Shown here in pieces: positions 20,585 through 63,941 of a DNA stretch of 64,000 nt. The position numbers and the translations under genes were made by a program. The notes under the pieces were generated by a model, which saw only the letters and a program-made list of their open reading frames with translations, ran no database searches and was not told the DNA's origin. The DNA comes from a virus: IMG/VR virus record IMGVR_UViG_3300037010_001702, positions 124,001 through 188,000 of that record; one strand, given 5' to 3'. Numbering within the stretch: position 1 is the stretch's first letter; every line of letters starts with the position of its first letter.

Positions 20585-22201
20585 ATGGCATCTTGGACTA
20601 ATTACTGGAGAATTGTAACTCCGCCATCAAGAAAAACTTCCTATTCACAGCCAGCTACTGTGACAATGGATGATGGTATGAATTTGAATTCTGCAGGTTA
20701 CGCGGCCTTCTCAACGGTATCCTGGTTTACGAACCTCATGAAGGGAGCAACAGCTCGTCTTCAACGCTATAAGCAGTATGAAGCGATGGACCTTGGGGAT
20801 ATCTCCAGAGCGCTCGACATCATCGCTGAAGAAATGTCAAACCCAGACAAAAAGACCGGTTTGCCATTCATCATTGACTATCAGACTGAAGAGAATCAAG
20901 AAATTCCCGGCACGACAGTAACAACTCTTAGAGCTGCCCTCCGTCACTGGGCAAAGTTTCACAACCTTAACAAGCGCATCTTTAACACAGCTCGTGTCAT
21001 GGTTAAGTATGGTGACTGCTTCTTTCGCAAGACATCTGATACCAAGAAATGGGAATACGTTGATCCAACACGAGTGATCGGCATTGAAATTGACACTGAA
21101 GGTGAGAAGGTAGCTTATCATATCCGTCCATCAAGCTTCAGAAATACCGTCTCGGGAAATACTGGCAAGCAAGAGTCAGTTGAAATTACTCCTGCGGCAG
21201 CAATGATTCACTTCACCTTGTCAGATGACACTGGCGATTCGGCTCCATTCGGTCTTTCAGTACTTCAACCAGCATTCAAGGACTATCAAAAGTTATCCAT
21301 GCTGGAAGACTCATCGATTATTTACCGCATTGTAAGAGCACCAGAGCGCAGAGTGTTCTACATTGACGTTGGTAACATGCCACCTCAACGTGTCAAGCAG
21401 TACCTTGAACAGATTCGTAATGACATTCGCCAAAAGAGAATGCCAAGCCAGAACAATGCTAATCAAACTGATTCAACCTACAACCCAGAGTCAATTCAGG
21501 AAGACATCTTCTTCCCAACGACAGCAGCTGGACGTGGTTCACGAGTTGAAACTCTTCCTGGTGGTACTACGTGGGAAATTCCTGAGCTTGATTACTTCCA
21601 GAACAAGGTCTTCCGTGCTCTTCGAGTACCTACTTCCTACATGAAGGGCGCAGATGCAGCTACAGCTGGTGCAGCCTACACCGATGGTAAGACCGGTGTT
21701 GCTTACATGGAAGAACGTATCTTTGGTAACTTCATCCAGCGTCTTCAAACGTGTTTAGAAGAAGTACTTGATGAACAGTTCAAGATTTATCTTCAGGTTA
21801 CGGGTATCAACATCGATACCGACATGTTCAAGATCAAGCTTCCAGAACCACAGAACTTCGACCTTTACCGTCAAGCAGCTCTTGACACCGACTTGATTAC
21901 CTCGTTCAAGGCAATTGAAGATACGAAGTACCTGAGCCGTAGATTCATCTTGAAGCGTTACCTAGGTCTCACTGAAGATGACATCCAGATGAATGAAACG
22001 CTTCTTAAGCAAGAAACGAACATTAAGGACGCTACTGTCGGTGAACTACAACAAATTTATGACCCAGCAGTCTATGACAATCGTGAGAAGATCAGCGTAG
22101 AAGCTCCTCCAGAGGAGGAAGGTGGTGGGGCTGGAGAGGAGGAAGCTCCAGAAATCAATACAGAAGTATCCGGTGGTGAAGATGAAGCTCCAGCAACATA
22201 A
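20585..22201 (+). CDS. gp20: Portal protein gp20
   Basis: The 538-residue protein has classical T4-type portal segments: DISRALDIIAEEMSNPD, DYQTEENQEIPGTT and YGDCFFRKTSDTKKWEYVDP in the stem and wing region, IRAPERRVFYIDVGNMPP-like VRAPERRVFYIDVGNMPP near the middle, then DYFQNKVFRALRVPTSYMKG. The portal dodecamer nucleates the prohead and is the packaging channel. The C-terminal 40 residues are acidic and low-complexity (PPEEEGGGAGEEEAPE). The length matches T4 gp20 (524 residues). It starts 16 bp after the tape-measure gene. Confidence 0.95.
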   Translation: MASWTNYWRIVTPPSRKTSYSQPATVTMDDGMNLNSAGYAAFSTVSWFTNLMKGATARLQRYKQYEAMDLGDISRALDIIAEEMSNPDKKTGLPFIIDYQTEENQEIPGTTVTTLRAALRHWAKFHNLNKRIFNTARVMVKYGDCFFRKTSDTKKWEYVDPTRVIGIEIDTEGEKVAYHIRPSSFRNTVSGNTGKQESVEITPAAAMIHFTLSDDTGDSAPFGLSVLQPAFKDYQKLSMLEDSSIIYRIVRAPERRVFYIDVGNMPPQRVKQYLEQIRNDIRQKRMPSQNNANQTDSTYNPESIQEDIFFPTTAAGRGSRVETLPGGTTWEIPELDYFQNKVFRALRVPTSYMKGADAATAGAAYTDGKTGVAYMEERIFGNFIQRLQTCLEEVLDEQFKIYLQVTGINIDTDMFKIKLPEPQNFDLYRQAALDTDLITSFKAIEDTKYLSRRFILKRYLGLTEDDIQMNETLLKQETNIKDATVGELQQIYDPAVYDNREKISVEAPPEEEGGGAGEEEAPEINTEVSGGEDEAPAT

Positions 22202-22202
22202 T

Positions 22203-22234
22203 TTATAAGGGAGCACAAGGTTCCCTTATAAATA
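22203..22234 (+). promoter_or_regulatory. Hairpin overlapping a late promoter upstream of gp21
   Basis: A 10-bp perfect stem (22203-22212 with 22222-22231) directly follows the portal gene. Its right arm runs into TATAAATA at 22227-22234, 30 bp before the gp21 start. The terminator-like hairpin and the late promoter share bases. Confidence 0.65.
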
Positions 22235-22264
22235 ATTCATCAGAAATGCACAGGAGATTTCCCA

Positions 22265-22879
22265 GTGAAACAACAACTTCTAATTGAACACCTTACACCA
22301 GCCGCAGCGGCTCTTGTAGAATCACGCGATATGGAGAAGAATCTTTACTTGGCGGGCCGTATTATGGCTGCTGAGCAAAAGAATCTTAACCAGCGCGTGT
22401 ACCCTAAAGCTGAGATCGCCCGCGCCGTAAGTCTCATTGCTGAAAAAGCAAAGGAAGGTGCTTTCATTATGGGTGAACTTAACCACCCAGACAACCTTTC
22501 AGTTGACCTTAAAAATGTCTCTCATATTATCACAGAAGCTTGGATGGATGGCGCCAACGCTATCGGTAAGTGCAAGATTTTGAATACACCATCTGGTCTC
22601 ATCGTTCAGAATCTTATCTCCGGTGGTGTTAAGCTTGGCGTATCATCTCGGGGTACTGGCAATGTAACAACAGAGGGTGTAGTTGAAGATTTCGCTTTCG
22701 TTACTCTTGACATCGTAGCTCAACCTTCAGGCCCAGGCTGTTACCCAGATGTTGTCCGTGAATCTGTTGAAAACACAAAAATTCTTACTCTTGCAGAAGC
22801 AGTTCAGTACGACAAGAAAGCTCAGAAGTATTTGACTTCTGAAATTCAAAAGTTCATCTCTTCACTTACGAGAAAATAA
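22265..22879 (+). CDS. gp21: Prohead core protease gp21
   Basis: A 204-residue serine protease of the T4 prohead/herpes assemblin (S78/U9-type) group. The catalytic regions are visible as GELNHPDNLS (His74) and LGVSSRGTG (Ser127/128). It cleaves scaffold, capsid and internal proteins at (I/L)-x-E sites during head maturation, and many proteins in this window end their N-terminal peptide at such a site. The start is a GTG preceded by AGGAG. The gene lies between portal and core genes, as in T4. Confidence 0.93.
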   Translation: MKQQLLIEHLTPAAAALVESRDMEKNLYLAGRIMAAEQKNLNQRVYPKAEIARAVSLIAEKAKEGAFIMGELNHPDNLSVDLKNVSHIITEAWMDGANAIGKCKILNTPSGLIVQNLISGGVKLGVSSRGTGNVTTEGVVEDFAFVTLDIVAQPSGPGCYPDVVRESVENTKILTLAEAVQYDKKAQKYLTSEIQKFISSLTRK

Positions 22880-22881
22880 TC

Positions 22882-23145
22882 GTGCTAATTAAACAATTAC
22901 TTTGCATCAACGAAGCGTACCAAGAGTCTTCAGACTTTGATGCAGCTTATACTGCAATTCAAAAGCATCTTAAAGATGCTAAAGCTATTGTCCAGTCTGC
23001 TAATTGGAGAAAGCATATGCAAGATGCTGATAGCAATTTTGGTACATCAAGTATTCAATATTCTCAGGATGCACTTAAATCATTGAATGAAGCTATTGCT
23101 GCATTTGAAGAATTCTATAACCACATTGAAAAGGTAGCACAATGA
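22882..23145 (+). CDS. Putative prohead core/internal protein
   Basis: An 87-residue helical protein starting (GTG) LIKQLLCINEAYQ. The N-terminal LLxINE-A resembles a gp21-cleavable capsid-targeting peptide (I-N-E|A). It has no enzymatic motif. It starts 2 bp after gp21 and overlaps the next gene by four bases, a position in which T4 encodes core proteins. A minor core or internal head protein is likely. Confidence 0.6.
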   Translation: MLIKQLLCINEAYQESSDFDAAYTAIQKHLKDAKAIVQSANWRKHMQDADSNFGTSSIQYSQDALKSLNEAIAAFEEFYNHIEKVAQ

Positions 23146-23744
23146 ACAACTTAAGAATTAGACAACTAGCAGGTCTTTCAACAGACCGCGCAGCCTTGGT
23201 CGAAGCAAAGAAGGCTAAGTTTATTGACACGGCAGAAACCAAGGAAGAACCACCAGAAGGTTTGTTCGCCACTGGTTCAAAGGCAAAGATCGTTAAGTGG
23301 TTGAAGTCCAACCACAAGGACCTTAAGAGCGCAATGTCTGCTCTTAACTTCTACATTAACCGTGCTGGTAAGAACCTTGATGAAGACCGTAAGGCAGTGC
23401 TTGACTCTTGCAAGGAAGCACTTGAAAAAGCATTTGCTGTTAAGGAAAGTTCAGAATTCCTTCGCAAGATTGCTGGTCTTTCACCTATCATTGAATCTGA
23501 TGAAGTTGAAGACACAGCAGATGGCGAGGGTGATGAGGGCGAGGGTGATGAGGGCGAAGAAGAACTTCCAGCCGTTATCAGGAAGATTGCCAAGGCCGCC
23601 GAAGGTAAGGAAGGCGAAGAGCTTGAAGAACTTCTTATGAAGGTCTATGAAGCTGGCCAGAAGGACGGTAAGAAGCAAGCTGAAGAAGCTGCAAGCAAGA
23701 GTGATTCGGTCGCCGATGCCGAAGATAAGCCAGCTAAAGAGTGA
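23142..23744 (+). CDS. Acidic prohead core protein (gp68-like position)
   Basis: The 200-residue protein begins MNNLRIRQLAGLSTDRAALV, followed by E|AK, a possible gp21 site (L-V-E). It has a helical middle and then a very acidic tract built from repeated GAGGGTGAT units (about 23526-23562, GEGDEGEGDEGEEE). A long Lys/Glu-rich C-terminal helix follows. Charged scaffold proteins of this type (T4 gp67/gp68) are processed to small acidic peptides that remain in the head. The gene is coupled to both neighbours. The position between protease and scaffold supports the call. Confidence 0.6.
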   Translation: MNNLRIRQLAGLSTDRAALVEAKKAKFIDTAETKEEPPEGLFATGSKAKIVKWLKSNHKDLKSAMSALNFYINRAGKNLDEDRKAVLDSCKEALEKAFAVKESSEFLRKIAGLSPIIESDEVEDTADGEGDEGEGDEGEEELPAVIRKIAKAAEGKEGEELEELLMKVYEAGQKDGKKQAEEAASKSDSVADAEDKPAKE

Positions 23745-48868: not shown

Positions 48869-49753
48869 ATGGCAGGAAATGAGCTCATTAAACGAGCATA
48901 TACGGAATCGGAATATACCCCCGAGCTTATTCAAGAGCTCGTAAGGTGTCAAAAGGACCCCGTCTACTTTATTAGAAAGTACGTCTGGCTCCAGCACCCA
49001 AAGCGCGGTAAAATTCTATTTGACTTGTATCCCTATCAAGAGGAGCTTATTCACGCGTGTGAGAACAATACCCGTGTTATCGCTCTTATCTCCCGTCAGA
49101 TGGGTAAGACGCAGACCATCTCCATGTACCTTTTGTGGTATGCGATGTTCCACCGAGATCAAACGATTGTCATCGCTTCTAAGAACAATAGCCACGCTAT
49201 GGAAATTATGGATCGTATCCGCTTCGCGTACGAAGAACTTCCGCACTGGCTAAAGGCAGGTTGTAAGTACTATAACAAGCACAACATTGAATTCGACAAT
49301 GGTTCCCGCATTAAGTCTGAAGCTACTACCGAAAAGACTGGTCGGGGATTGGCAATTTCAAAGCTTTACCTTGACGAATTGGCCTTCATCTCACCACGCG
49401 TTCAAACTGAAATGTGGCGCTCACTATCGCCAACTCTTTCAACTGGTGGTTCTGCTATCATCTCATCTACTCCTAATGGTGATACTGACCTGTTTGCTAC
49501 TCTTTGGCGTGGTGCTAAATCAGGTGAGAACAACTTCAAGCCAGTGTTCTTCCCGTGGCACCTTCACCCTGATCGCAAGGAAGAGTACATTAAGCAGATG
49601 CAGGGCGAACTTGGTCCTGTAGGTTTCCGACAGGAAGTTCTGTGTTGCTCAAGTTGGGCCTCTATAAATACTTCTATTGGTAAAACCACTTTAGAAGAAC
49701 TTTATGAATGCCTATTAGAAGGGCAAGAGCAGGTGTATCACATCAATGTTTGA
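48869..49753 (+). CDS. gp17: Large terminase gp17, N-terminal half plus N-intein
   Basis: A 294-residue ORF. Residues 1-258 are the terminase ATPase: ALISRQMGKTQT (Walker A, 72-83), FDNGSRIKSE, KLYLDELAF (Walker B, 165-173) and SSTPNGDTD (coupling motif III). They end at GFRQEVL. From Cys259 the sequence is an intein start: CCSSWASINTSIGKTTLEEL then YECLLEGQEQVYHINV and TGA. C-x7-I-x-T-x2-G-x5-EELYE matches block A of inteins. The missing terminase half plus the C-intein is at 50214. Splicing would join ...RQEVL to CEFISS..., restoring the family's 'RQE..CEF' sequence. The N-intein is only 36 residues. Confidence 0.93.
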   Translation: MAGNELIKRAYTESEYTPELIQELVRCQKDPVYFIRKYVWLQHPKRGKILFDLYPYQEELIHACENNTRVIALISRQMGKTQTISMYLLWYAMFHRDQTIVIASKNNSHAMEIMDRIRFAYEELPHWLKAGCKYYNKHNIEFDNGSRIKSEATTEKTGRGLAISKLYLDELAFISPRVQTEMWRSLSPTLSTGGSAIISSTPNGDTDLFATLWRGAKSGENNFKPVFFPWHLHPDRKEEYIKQMQGELGPVGFRQEVLCCSSWASINTSIGKTTLEELYECLLEGQEQVYHINV

Positions 49754-50213
49754 CACGAAGGATTACAACCTGACGACTGGGGGGCATTTCAAGCATGTGG
49801 TGACCCCAGGGCGCACCTCTTCCGCACTACGGAAAACTGGACTGCTTCTTCTGATAAGTATAGAAAACATTCGAAGAACATCCGAATGTTCTTGCAGCAA
49901 GAACTAAGATAATTCACGAAGCTAACTTAAAAGCAGGTGAGGATGGTTAACGGTTACAAGCGCACTGCAAAAGGACGAAATCTATGTTCTGACGCGTGTT
50001 GAAAACAAAAAGATTATAGAGTTCTATGGTAACTATTGGTATGCTTGCCTAAAAAGTACAGACCTGATGAAGTGGTAGGTTGTAAAGGCCAAACATCACG
50101 GCAAATCTGTGACGCGGATGCCACCAAGATCAAGTTGGCAGAAGATGCATGGTATCAAGTTAAGATAGTATAAGAACCGGAATACAAGAAAAACCTAAGA
50201 AGGTGGTAGATGA
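49754..50213 (+). pseudogene. Decayed core of the terL intein between the two halves
   Basis: This 460-bp gap has no intact ORF but is not random. After the TGA at 49751 the same frame goes on as HEGLQPDDWGAFQACGDPRA then HLFRTTENWTASSDKYRKHS to TAA 49910. Five successive -1 shifts then keep it protein-like: KIIHEANLKAGED; TSALQKDEIYVLTRVENKKI; KKYRPDEVVGCKGQTSRQIC; KPKKVVDECIAWLK; and finally the frame of the C-intein. It reads as the former middle of a longer contiguous intein, without a recognisable endonuclease motif. Confidence 0.7.
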
Positions 50214-51353
50214 ATGCATAGCATGGCTCAAACAATAAAGAACACAAAGGGCGTTAAAGTTCAAACTCCAACTGGGATGAAGAATTTTAGCGGTATGTCT
50301 AAAAGCTGGCATGAGCAAGTTGTTGAAATAGTATCAGCAACAAGAAAAATAACGTGCGGGATGAAGCATAAATTTCTTGTTGAGCCAGGTTGGGTTGATG
50401 CTGAGCACATTGAGCCGGGTATGTCATTTACGACAATTGATGGCAAGGATGATCCTATCCTTAGTGTTCAGGTTAAAAATGATCCACAGTGGTTGTATGA
50501 TCTACTTGATGTTGAGGGTGGTAGTGCCTACATAACAGAGGGGGTCATATCGCACAACTGTGAATTTATTTCATCAGACGCGCTGTTGATGGACTCACTT
50601 AAACTGTCCTACATTAAGGCCACACCTCCGGTTACCCAGAACATGGGCTTTAACTTCTGGCGAGAGTCAATAGGTGGGCGAGGTAAGACGTACTTAGTAG
50701 GTGTAGACCCGGCTACTGGTAACAGTAAGGACTTTACTGTCATTGAAGTTATCGAGTACCCGTCAATGGAGCAGGTGGCAGAATTCAGAAGCAACACCGT
50801 TCACATTCCACTGATCTATGCTAAGCTCAAGTGGTTGTTTAAGTTCCTTCATCAACCTGATCCAAACAGGGGTAGAGCTGAAATTATCTGGTCATTTGAG
50901 CGCAACGGTGTTGGTGAAGCTCTTGTTGCAATGATTCAAAATGACGACTCTATGGATGGTGGTATCTACCTTGACGGTGTTGAACTGTACAATGAGAGCT
51001 CAACCAGTCAGCGCCTTGGTTGCTACACTACTGGTAAGTCAAAGCTTCTTGCCTGTATGCAGCTTAAGAACCTTTTGGAAAAGGGAGATGGTATCAAGAT
51101 CAACTCAGAACACTTGCTATACGAGCTTCAGAACTTCGTGGCAGTTAATGGCACCTACCAAGCTAAGCAGGGTTGTACTGATGACACGATCATGGCAATG
51201 GCGGTTGTTATGAAGGTTCTCGGCAGACTCGCATCATACGATGACAAGGCAAGAAAGCTTGTGTATGAGTCAGTTGACCCGGACTCTGACAAGCTTCCGG
51301 AGGAAAACCCAGATCAATTTGGAGATGACTACGTTCCGTTTGCAATAGTCTGA
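50214..51353 (+). CDS. gp17: C-intein plus large terminase gp17, C-terminal half
   Basis: A 379-residue ORF. Residues 1-115 are the intein C-part: GVKVQTPTGMKNFSGMSK (13-30), block B ITCGMKHKFLVEPGW (46-60), block F QWLYDLLDVEGG and block G ITEGVISHN|C (Asn115, +1 Cys116). The Thr usual four positions before the block B His is Gly. Residues 116-379 are the terminase nuclease: YLVGVDPATGNSKDFTVIEV (first acidic residue), EIIWSFERNGVGEAL and GCTDDTIMAMAVVM. Spliced TerL would have 522 residues. An AAGG site lies upstream of ATG 50214; ATG 50223 is an alternative start. Confidence 0.92.
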   Translation: MHSMAQTIKNTKGVKVQTPTGMKNFSGMSKSWHEQVVEIVSATRKITCGMKHKFLVEPGWVDAEHIEPGMSFTTIDGKDDPILSVQVKNDPQWLYDLLDVEGGSAYITEGVISHNCEFISSDALLMDSLKLSYIKATPPVTQNMGFNFWRESIGGRGKTYLVGVDPATGNSKDFTVIEVIEYPSMEQVAEFRSNTVHIPLIYAKLKWLFKFLHQPDPNRGRAEIIWSFERNGVGEALVAMIQNDDSMDGGIYLDGVELYNESSTSQRLGCYTTGKSKLLACMQLKNLLEKGDGIKINSEHLLYELQNFVAVNGTYQAKQGCTDDTIMAMAVVMKVLGRLASYDDKARKLVYESVDPDSDKLPEENPDQFGDDYVPFAIV

Positions 51354-61161: not shown

Positions 61162-62220
61162 ATGAAATGTATTCTGCGAATAACCGATGAAGTATGGTGC
61201 CAGATATCTGGTATAATGCCTGGGCATGTAGAGACATTAGTAAAAGCATTTTCTGTTCACCCAGAAGGTTATTTTTTTATGCCTGCCTTCAAGCTTGGGA
61301 GATGGAACGGATATATCCAATTTTATTCTCCAACAGGTAAGACCTATGTCCGTCTATTAGATCAGGTTATCCCTTACTTAGAGAAGTGGGGATATGACAT
61401 TGAGCTGATAGATAATCGAAAGTACTTTGAACCTCCTGTAGTTGGCGGTAAGCTTTTGACTATTGACCCTGCGGGCATTGCTCTCACTGCTTCTGGGACT
61501 AACATAATGGGCGATGATGTTGTCGTTGGCGGAAAGGTATTCAATCTCCGCCCATACCAATTACAGTGTGTTCAGATTGCTGTAGAGAATGGAAGTGGTT
61601 TCATTATCGCAGGAACTGGTGCAGGCAAAACCTCCATCACAGGTGCTCTCTCCTACTACTATGCCAATGCCGGCTATAAAGTAATCACGATTGTTCCATC
61701 CGGTGATCTTGTAGACCAAACAGCTGAGTGGTATGAACTCCTAGGTCTAGATGTAGGCACCTATTCTGGTACAGAGAAGGACCTTGACCACATGCACATC
61801 GTTGCAACGTGGCAGGCAGTACAGTATAATCCTACAATCATGCATGACTTTCAATGTCTGATTTGGGATGAGTGTTTTTGTGGTGAGACTCCTGTATTGA
61901 TGTCTGACATGACGGAAAAGAAAATAAAAGACGTTCGGGTCGGTGATTATGTTTTATCAATGGACGCAAACGGAAATTTCGAGCCTTGTAAAGTGTTAAA
62001 AACTCACATTAATTTACCAAAATCTAAGGTAAAAATGCTTCGGCTAACGTTTGATAATGGACGTTATTTAGATGTTACCGAAAATCATATTTTCTATCTA
62101 AAAGATGGTAGAAAGGTTATGGCAAAAGATTTAACTGAGCGTGATGATATATGTGAATTCTCCTTAAATAAAATGAAAGCTCATGGAGATAAAGTGAATG
62201 AAGAAGAAAATCATAAATGA
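61162..62220 (+). CDS. uvsW: Helicase UvsW, N-terminal part plus N-intein
   Basis: A 352-residue ORF. Residues 1-237 are UvsW: the N-terminal DNA-binding piece (FFMPAFKLGRWNGYIQFYSP), RPYQLQCVQIAVENG (Q-motif-like), FIIAGTGAGKTSITG (Walker A, 148-162) and the first half of the DExH box, QCLIWDE. From Cys238 it becomes an intein: CFCGETPVLMSDM, VRVGDYVLSMDANG, block B RYLDVTENHIFYL (T-x-x-H) and MAKDLTERDD, ending with a stop after 115 residues. The remaining helicase half and C-intein lie at 63084. The HE gene between them overlaps this ORF by 23 bp. Confidence 0.93.
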   Translation: MKCILRITDEVWCQISGIMPGHVETLVKAFSVHPEGYFFMPAFKLGRWNGYIQFYSPTGKTYVRLLDQVIPYLEKWGYDIELIDNRKYFEPPVVGGKLLTIDPAGIALTASGTNIMGDDVVVGGKVFNLRPYQLQCVQIAVENGSGFIIAGTGAGKTSITGALSYYYANAGYKVITIVPSGDLVDQTAEWYELLGLDVGTYSGTEKDLDHMHIVATWQAVQYNPTIMHDFQCLIWDECFCGETPVLMSDMTEKKIKDVRVGDYVLSMDANGNFEPCKVLKTHINLPKSKVKMLRLTFDNGRYLDVTENHIFYLKDGRKVMAKDLTERDDICEFSLNKMKAHGDKVNEEENHK

Positions 62221-63115
62221 TTTACTAGGAGATGAATTTTTAATAGATATTAAGTTTTTACCTAGAACCGGATCAGTCAGATTGCCTTTTGATTCAGCTG
62301 TATTTTCATGTGGTCGCAAGCTTAATAAAAAAGAGTTTGGTAAATTTTATAGACTATTAATGCAAGGTCATCTTGAAGAAGCTAGGACTTTTGTAGCAGC
62401 TCCACAAGAATTTGAAAAATTAAACAAACAACGAAGGCAGATTGCTGCTTCTAAAGGTGGTAGGGCTGCCATGTTAGATCCGAAAAATTATGTTTGTAAT
62501 AAAAATGGTACGCATTGGAATAGAGGGACAGTTGGATTAGTTAAGGCATGGAACAAAGGATTAACTAAAAATACTGATGTTCGATGCAAAAACATCTCTA
62601 TCGCTAAAATGGGAGCAAAAAACCCAATGTATGGTAGACCAGTATCAGCTTTAACGCGTGAAAAGTTATCATTAAAAGCAAAGCAAAATATTGAATCAGG
62701 TAAATGGACCCCTAATACGTTTAATTCTAGAACAAGAAAGCAACTTAAATTTAGAGATAAACTTTTCAGAAGTAGCTGGGAGGCTCTTTTTTATCAAGCA
62801 TTTCCACAAGCAGAATACGAAAAGATTAGAATACCGTATTTTACTGATAAGCATCACGTTTACATTACCGATTTTAAAGTTGGTAATGTAATTTATGAAA
62901 TAAAACCTGAGAAGTACGTAAAATTAAAACAACCCATTCTTGATATAGTAGCACGCTGGTGTGTTAGCAATGGATTTGAATTTGTTATATTAACTGAATT
63001 TTCTTTAACAGAACTAATACCAAAACACACTGTTAATTTTAGTGAATTTGATGAAAATACTGAAAAACTATTAAGAGGATTATATGCATCTGTTGAAAAA
63101 AGAAGAAATAGATAA
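62198..63115 (+). CDS. Split-intein-associated homing endonuclease (Vsr/PD-(D/E)XK-like)
   Basis: A 305-residue AT-rich ORF between the two uvsW halves, overlapping both (23 and 32 bp). Residues about 100-160 hold NUMOD3-like repeats (WNRGTVGLVKAWNKGLTKNT; NISIAKMGAKNPMYGRP). Residues 190-240 form a PD-(D/E)XK/Vsr-like nuclease core: FRSSWEALFYQ (Glu195), VYITDFKV (Asp225) and IYEIKPEKY (E-x-K 234-236). This arrangement, a free HE between split-intein halves, is the known fractured-gene organisation of phage split inteins. GGAG is 9 bp before the ATG. All active-site residues seem intact. Confidence 0.88.
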   Translation: MKKKIINDLLGDEFLIDIKFLPRTGSVRLPFDSAVFSCGRKLNKKEFGKFYRLLMQGHLEEARTFVAAPQEFEKLNKQRRQIAASKGGRAAMLDPKNYVCNKNGTHWNRGTVGLVKAWNKGLTKNTDVRCKNISIAKMGAKNPMYGRPVSALTREKLSLKAKQNIESGKWTPNTFNSRTRKQLKFRDKLFRSSWEALFYQAFPQAEYEKIRIPYFTDKHHVYITDFKVGNVIYEIKPEKYVKLKQPILDIVARWCVSNGFEFVILTEFSLTELIPKHTVNFSEFDENTEKLLRGLYASVEKRRNR

Positions 63116-63941
63116 GCCAGAAAAAGTTTATGATTTAACTGTTGATAAACACCACAACTATATTGTTAATGGTGCTGTTGTTTCGAATTGTCACGGTATC
63201 AAAGCTACTGTTGCGCAGAAACTTGTCAATGATAATGGTAAGCACATTGCATTCCGCTTTGGCGTAACAGGAACATTCCCTAAACCAGAGTCTGAAAAGC
63301 TTTCTCTTATTACTTCAATTGGGCCTATCCTCAAAGAGATTCCTGCTGCGTGGTTAATTGACCATGGTTATCTTGCTAAGGTTCAGATTCAGCCTGTTGA
63401 ATTGAATGAGAGTTATATCGATGAAGACTTTCCTGACTATGCTGCTGAGAAATCCTTCTTAGCTAAGAGCACTAATCGAATGGAGATCATTGCTGATTTG
63501 ATCATCTCTCAATGTGCAGCGCATGGCAATACTCTTGTCCTGGTTAACTCTATTCCATTTGGTGAAAAGTTAGCTAAGCTGATTAAGGGTGCTGTCTTTC
63601 TTTATGGCGAATCACCAAAAGACTTGCGCCGCGAACATTATGATATGTTTGAAGAGAATGATGATATAATAGTAATAGCCTCAGCAGGTATTGCTTCAAC
63701 AGGCCTCTCGATTGACCGTATTTTCTGTATGATGTTTGTAGATGCAGGTAAATCCTTCATCAAAGCTATTCAATCAGTAGGGCGCGGTCTTCGTATTGGA
63801 CATGACAAAGATTCTGTTATGGTTGTCGATGTTCACTCTAAACTAAAATGGGCAGTGAGGCACTTTAAGGAACGAGTGAAGCACTACAAAGAAGCTGGAT
63901 ACCCAATAAACAAGAAACAAACTTTGAAAGTAAAAGGTTAA
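63084..63941 (+). CDS. uvsW: C-intein plus helicase UvsW, C-terminal part
   Basis: A 285-residue ORF. The first 35 residues are a C-intein: MHLLKKEEIDKPEKVYDLTV (block F) and DKHHNYIVNGAVVSN, with terminal Asn35 and +1 Cys36; the usual penultimate His is Ser. The extein resumes as CHGIKATVAQKLVN, completing the DE|CH helicase motif II, then RFGVTGTFPK (motif III), VNSIPFGEKLAKLI, VIASAGIASTGLSIDRI and QSVGRGLRIG (motif VI). Spliced UvsW would have 487 residues, close to T4 UvsW. AGAGG lies 6 bp before the ATG. The 63942-64000 tail holds no gene I can support. Confidence 0.93.
   Translation: MHLLKKEEIDKPEKVYDLTVDKHHNYIVNGAVVSNCHGIKATVAQKLVNDNGKHIAFRFGVTGTFPKPESEKLSLITSIGPILKEIPAAWLIDHGYLAKVQIQPVELNESYIDEDFPDYAAEKSFLAKSTNRMEIIADLIISQCAAHGNTLVLVNSIPFGEKLAKLIKGAVFLYGESPKDLRREHYDMFEENDDIIVIASAGIASTGLSIDRIFCMMFVDAGKSFIKAIQSVGRGLRIGHDKDSVMVVDVHSKLKWAVRHFKERVKHYKEAGYPINKKQTLKVKG

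Follow-up and report, generated by a model that had tools for sequence, protein, structure and literature searches.

Here we analyze the repair helicase gene uvsW in a 64,000-nucleotide stretch of DNA from a large phage (positions 124,001 to 188,000 of the IMG/VR record IMGVR_UViG_3300037010_001702), hereafter called the window, in which the gene is broken into two halves. Positions 61873-63188 most probably hold a selfish homing element (probability about 0.93), in which a trans-splicing split intein and a homing endonuclease would move as one unit, and the two UvsW halves would almost certainly be rejoined by protein splicing. A first-pass annotation had already proposed a uvsW gene fractured by a split intein with a resident homing endonuclease, and both the domain matches and the empty-site alleles agree with it; the observation was real, well read and mostly right in its interpretation, while the arrangement is distributed far more widely than was supposed.

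Organization of the fractured uvsW locus

Each of the three open reading frames (ORFs) of the locus (Table 1) lies in its own frame, the middle one overlapping both neighbours, and Shine-Dalgarno-like motifs precede the ATG start codons of the endonuclease (GGAG) and of the C-half (GAGG). Across the two halves the UvsW_N, DExH helicase and Helicase_C domains follow one another in this order. The N-extein matched ResIII (1.3e-10, over the cut-off), UvsW_N (1.7e-4, below the cut-off with 22.4 vs. 25.3 bits) and PHROG 16259 'DNA helicase' (5.8e-48), and the C-extein matched Helicase_C (1.4e-7, over the cut-off) and PHROG 9690 (1.8e-50), these two PHROG families covering half helicases together with their intein parts. 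When the element was removed in silico, ...LIWDE joined CHGIK... and a UvsW of 487 residues was obtained, the insertion point lying, exact to the codon, between DE and CH of the DExH box (DE/CH, where the slash marks the cut). The first-pass annotation had the coordinates, the ORF layout, the lengths of both intein parts (115 and 35 aa) and the 487-residue join exactly right.

A sequencing or assembly frameshift behind the three frames was excluded, because two further IMG/VR contigs, which stem from different metagenome sets, are identical (100%) to the uvsW region over 5.8 kb, and homologues show the same overlaps. At the DNA level, no sequenced phage matched the uvsW region. Neither half contains the whole DExH box, so that the helicase should need splicing and only a precise loss of the element would be tolerated; a cut within the catalytic motif would thus protect the element, since any imprecise loss would destroy helicase function. 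This dependence on trans-splicing had been anticipated, and it fits the existence of empty-site alleles as well as the lack of a second UvsW: an intact copy elsewhere was looked for in the 239,441-bp record, where the UvsW matches are the two halves only and Helicase_C is matched once.

The sequence hallmarks of a class 1 split intein are present, namely Cys1, the block B TENH, the terminal Asn and the +1 Cys (VVSN/C), and in comparison with solved structures the N-intein matched hedgehog and gp41-1 intein relatives at 9e-5 to 9e-4. The uvsW intein is split at the usual place, unlike the terL intein of the same phage (GOS-TerL-like, see below), and L004 carries the only close relative found of this exact intein, apart from the same virus. 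The N-intein measures 115 aa vs. 97-100 aa in most family members, and its final ~15 aa, which overlap the endonuclease ORF region, are likely dispensable. The penultimate Ser of the C-intein, considered unusual in the first-pass annotation, is shared by 62 of the 74 complete fractured uvsW loci, the others having Ala (5), Lys (3), His (2) or Glu (2), in a set that includes many near-copies and is reduced to 43 rows by their removal. The efficient Npu DnaE split intein likewise ends in Ser-Asn.

Empty sites, mobility and selection

Related genomes differ in whether this site carries the element, and the element has been transferred between lineages. Intein-free uvsW genes at the same junction, the search for which had been recommended, do exist: in L027, the nearest relative of the window (90% identity at the amino acid and 79-87% at the DNA level), uvsW is uninterrupted, as is nrdA, and a comparison of L152 (occupied) with L088 (empty) gave flanks that are 90% and 85% identical, with the insertion exactly at DE/CH. 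In a comparison of the window with L004, identity at third codon positions is 40% and 44% in the exteins vs. 89% and 86% in the two intein parts, and it changes stepwise at both intein-extein junctions; the exteins are saturated at synonymous sites, while the intein is nearly identical, with 0.038 nonsynonymous (dN) and 0.26 synonymous (dS) substitutions per site. The intein thus moved after the window phage and L004 had split. Other phage pairs follow the same pattern, with exteins 62-88% and intein plus endonuclease 91-100% identical (e.g., L141/L142: exteins 62%, intein 91%, endonuclease 93%; L143/L144: 79%, 100%, and 100%; a further pair: 75%, 95%, and 96%). On the UvsW tree, for which empty sites were sampled mostly by the DECH pattern and occupied sites by the endonuclease search, a biased sampling, the two states interleave with nine changes, seven of them forced by well supported branches.

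It is conceivable, though improbable, that an old, now immobile split intein simply harbours the endonuclease, whose targets would lie elsewhere, as relatives of this endonuclease also occur in other genes (terL; L174, L179) and split inteins persist without an endonuclease. Against this, intein and endonuclease distances correlate with each other at r 0.86 and with those of the exteins only at 0.68 and 0.67, and complete elements can be the same in phages whose UvsW is 79% identical.

Purifying selection acts on the intein, on the endonuclease and on both exteins: dN/dS of the exteins was 0.06 and 0.05 vs. L027 and 0.05-0.11 in other pairs, that of the intein ~0.15 between distant phages, and that of the endonuclease 0.12-0.35 in other phage pairs. 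These values also bear on a second alternative, very unlikely in our view, in which the gene stays in pieces without splicing and the UvsW halves assemble non-covalently, as those of NrdA do in some T-even-like phages, next to inert intein remnants. T4-like phages do have split enzymes that are not spliced, and the assembly of split polypeptides into functional complexes has been discussed (PMC2988022), but the catalytic positions of the intein are kept across the 74 loci, its dN/dS is low even between distant phages, the break lies inside DE/CH with foreign domains on both ends, and where the intein at this site is contiguous (cis forms), UvsW can arise only by splicing. Hardly any weight is left for a decaying gene, i.e., a uvsW pseudogene broken by a mobile element in a phage relying on another helicase, since the need for three frames and the loss of most of the endonuclease in L004 are outweighed by the low dN/dS of the exteins, the lack of another UvsW in the record, and both halves being open in dozens of phages.

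If the locus is a homing element, the two half-proteins would be made separately, each ORF from its own start, and the intein halves would associate and trans-splice by means of Cys1, TENH, Asn and the +1 Cys, so that the DECH box is restored in a UvsW of 487 aa. Intein-less uvsW in a co-infecting phage would be cut near DE/CH by the NUMOD3/TnsA-like endonuclease, and recombination would copy the entire block of N-intein, endonuclease and C-intein across. Over time the endonuclease may be lost, with the split intein persisting or re-fusing into a contiguous one. Some observations weigh against such an element. The nearest empty allele, that of L027 (4001-5461), reads DEAH and not DECH, so that the +1 Cys would be absent until the site is converted, and this allele is possibly resistant to homing. 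No intact close homologue of the window endonuclease was found, and the selection figures for this gene come from other pairs. The usual acidic-basic charge complementarity between intein halves was not seen either, with net charges of ~0 (N-intein) and -1 (C-intein).

A predicted TnsA-like homing endonuclease

Judging from alignments and a structural model, the endonuclease is predicted to be a TnsA-like PD-(D/E)XK nuclease with NUMOD3. In an alignment of 34 family members R191-SSWE195, E208, D225 and E234 are invariant and K236 is found in at least 90%, and E195, D225 and E234-x-K236, which had been pointed out as Glu/Asp/ExK nuclease residues, make up the E...D...ExK signature of PD-(D/E)XK nucleases. 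The Pfam TnsA-like N-terminal domain (PF08722) was matched by 25/34 members (best 1.8e-10), the window endonuclease scoring slightly below the cut-off (25.9 vs. 26.5 bits), and NUMOD3 by 22/34 (best 4.6e-12). NUMOD3 repeats had been reported for the window endonuclease; the motif is there, as a single match (E 0.003), and repeats are not clear.

A sequence search against solved structures gave nothing useful, and Foldseek by itself produced weak matches (best E 0.2; probability 0.72 for TnsA). The AlphaFold model has a mean predicted local distance difference test score of 80, rising above 90 through most of the catalytic domain, and its VIA-align comparison with solved structures placed Tn7 TnsA first (Z 8.4 over 117 residues, 2.8 Å), followed by TnsA with 8.1, while the EDxHD enzyme I-Bth0305I reached 5.7. 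The Vsr-like assignment of the first-pass annotation was therefore not supported: none of the 34 members matched a Vsr/EDxHD family in Pfam, the window endonuclease also had no such match in NCBIfam or PHROG, and TnsA fits better. As the active sites of EDxHD and PD-(D/E)XK enzymes have been described as similar (PMC3943268), 'Vsr-like' names a neighbouring class, probably not that of this nuclease, EDxHD and TnsA-type nucleases being distant members of one superfamily. The uvsW endonuclease shares its predicted catalytic-domain fold and the Pfam domain with Tn7 TnsA, to which it is 12-13% identical; unlike Tn7 TnsA, it stands behind a NUMOD3 DNA-binding segment, is encoded inside an intein, and has no transposon genes alongside.

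Nearly all endonuclease relatives found in IMG/VR sit in uvsW at DE/CH, the exceptions being terL genes, either fractured or with an intein, in other phages (L174, L179, L180). The presence of this family in both uvsW and terL indicates that it is able to change its host gene.

Distribution in other phages

The same junction is occupied in Salmonella phage S16 and its relatives, in Proteus phage PM2 and in dozens of IMG/VR contigs, so uvsW is not the new host gene for which it had been taken. Salmonella phage S16/STP4-a (Gelderlandvirus) and Proteus phage PM2 (Bragavirus) have the same order of UvsW N-half with N-intein, endonuclease, and C-intein with UvsW C-half, and their intein and endonuclease are homologous to those of the window (29-31% identity). 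Their half-proteins are just 27-34% identical to the window's, their C-inteins end in LAHN instead of VVSN, and the locus is annotated there as no more than a pair of 'DNA helicase' genes plus a hypothetical protein.

Dassa et al. (2009; NAR 37:2560) reportedly described 'fractured genes', conserved phage genes of DNA metabolism that are interrupted by a split intein and have a free-standing endonuclease gene between the halves. The window locus, with its split intein and an endonuclease gene between the halves, is a further example of this known arrangement, although their endonuclease is Vsr-related (EDxHD) whereas that of uvsW appears TnsA-like with NUMOD3. A literature search, which did not reach Dassa et al. 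(2009), found no paper linking uvsW to a split intein.

Loss of the endonuclease and re-fusion of the intein

With the intein search 81 loci were found and sorted by endonuclease state, 66 of which have a match to the endonuclease family (a few of them a remnant only, or one elsewhere in the locus). Scars of the endonuclease remain in L004 (174 bp), L231/L249 (181 bp) and L211/L213/L215 (49 bp), and the intein is split without an endonuclease between the halves in L247, L221, L261, L263/L264 and L214. Contiguous inteins occupy the uvsW DE/CH site in L234 and four near-copies (139 aa) as well as in L201 (134 aa). The intein of L234 (2501-2917) retains a 3'-terminal piece of the endonuclease gene (~32 bp), read in the frame of the C-intein, and its breakpoints relative to L183 (3367-4682) define a deletion of ~0.9 kb; because of this relic and these breakpoints, the cis-intein of L234 derives from the split form and represents a natural reversal of a split intein. 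L183 (with endonuclease), L261 (split, no endonuclease) and L234 (re-fused) form one well supported clade (98), and their UvsW exteins are roughly 88-93% identical, so that differences in background hardly affect a comparison of the three states. In the tree that contains this clade, at least five to seven changes are needed to explain the endonuclease-less state.

Other fractured genes in the same genome

With intein models, four more broken genes were detected in the same record (Table 1), and five fractured genes with several nuclease types in one phage are notable. Catalytic-motif insertion is typical of inteins, and by sequence the cut falls in a catalytic motif in 4/5 of these genes. In rnlA the endonuclease (PHROG homing endonuclease) lies between the halves on the opposite strand and carries, again by sequence, a Vsr/EDxHD-like motif, VLEVQGDFWHANP (LEVQGDFWHAN). 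The N-intein of the ATPase-like gene starts with Ser and has just ~34 aa, the +1 residue is Thr, and a DUF559-type endonuclease is found between the halves. The terL intein matches the solved VidaL and the engineered CatC inteins, and the 460 bp between the terL halves contain no endonuclease-like ORF. GOS-TerL and AceL-TerL are atypical split inteins; with its short N-intein and 115-aa C-intein, the terL intein of the window (48869-51353), not that of uvsW, resembles GOS-TerL (37/115; PMC11766414).

Table 1. Features of the fractured uvsW locus and of the other fractured genes. Coordinates refer to the window unless a locus is named; L017, L018 and L026 are stretches of the window's own record.
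Feature	Coordinates	Strand	Description
UvsW N-half ORF	61162-62220	+	352 aa
UvsW N-extein	61162..61872	+	237 aa, ends ...LIWDE (DE, first two residues of Walker B / DExH)
Whole inserted element	61873..63188	+	1316 bp; missing at the homologous site in L027 and other relatives
N-intein	61873..62220	+	115 aa + stop; Cys1 (CFCGETPVLM), block B TENH; Hint 5e-11, over the cut-off
Endonuclease ORF, free-standing homing endonuclease	62198-63115	+	305 aa; NUMOD3 133-158, predicted TnsA-like PD-(D/E)XK domain ~180-280
UvsW C-half ORF	63084-63941	+	285 aa
C-intein	63084..63188	+	35 aa, MHLLKK...HHNYIVNGAVVSN, own ATG, ends VVSN; TIGR01443 3.9e-8, Intein_splicing 2.2e-5
UvsW C-extein	63189..63941	+	250 aa, starts with +1 Cys (CHGIKATVAQ), helicase motifs to QSVGRGLR
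terL halves	48869-49753 and 50214-51353		short N-intein ~36 aa (CCSSWASINTS...), 115-aa C-intein, end ISHN/CEFIS
nrdA	L018 9716-13260 (record 189715-193259)		1.8 kb past uvsW; cut NL/C...N/CTE; GIY-YIG homing endonuclease
rnlA (T4-type RNA ligase 1)	L017 3030-5643 (record 70529-73142)		cut at nucleotidyl motif KRDG/SLI
ATPase-like gene, PHROG 1250	L026 1170-4210 (record 20669-23709)		cut in Walker A-like GKGG/TGKT

Implications

The most interesting result around this locus is that natural phages probably display a complete reversible cycle at uvsW DE/CH, comprising the empty site, the N-intein-endonuclease-C-intein block, the split intein with a scar, the split intein without an endonuclease, and the cis-intein restored from the split form through deletion of the endonuclease. 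Splitting by endonuclease insertion would then be no dead end, and TnsA-type nucleases, not only Vsr-type ones, could drive it, in a phage that holds five such fractured genes with several nuclease types. The uvsW intein family is a natural experiment on the origin, spread, decay and re-fusion of split inteins. It also offers TnsA-like NUMOD3 homing endonucleases as a class with a predictable target, and dozens of predicted natural split inteins whose penultimate residue is not His and which may be of use for protein ligation.
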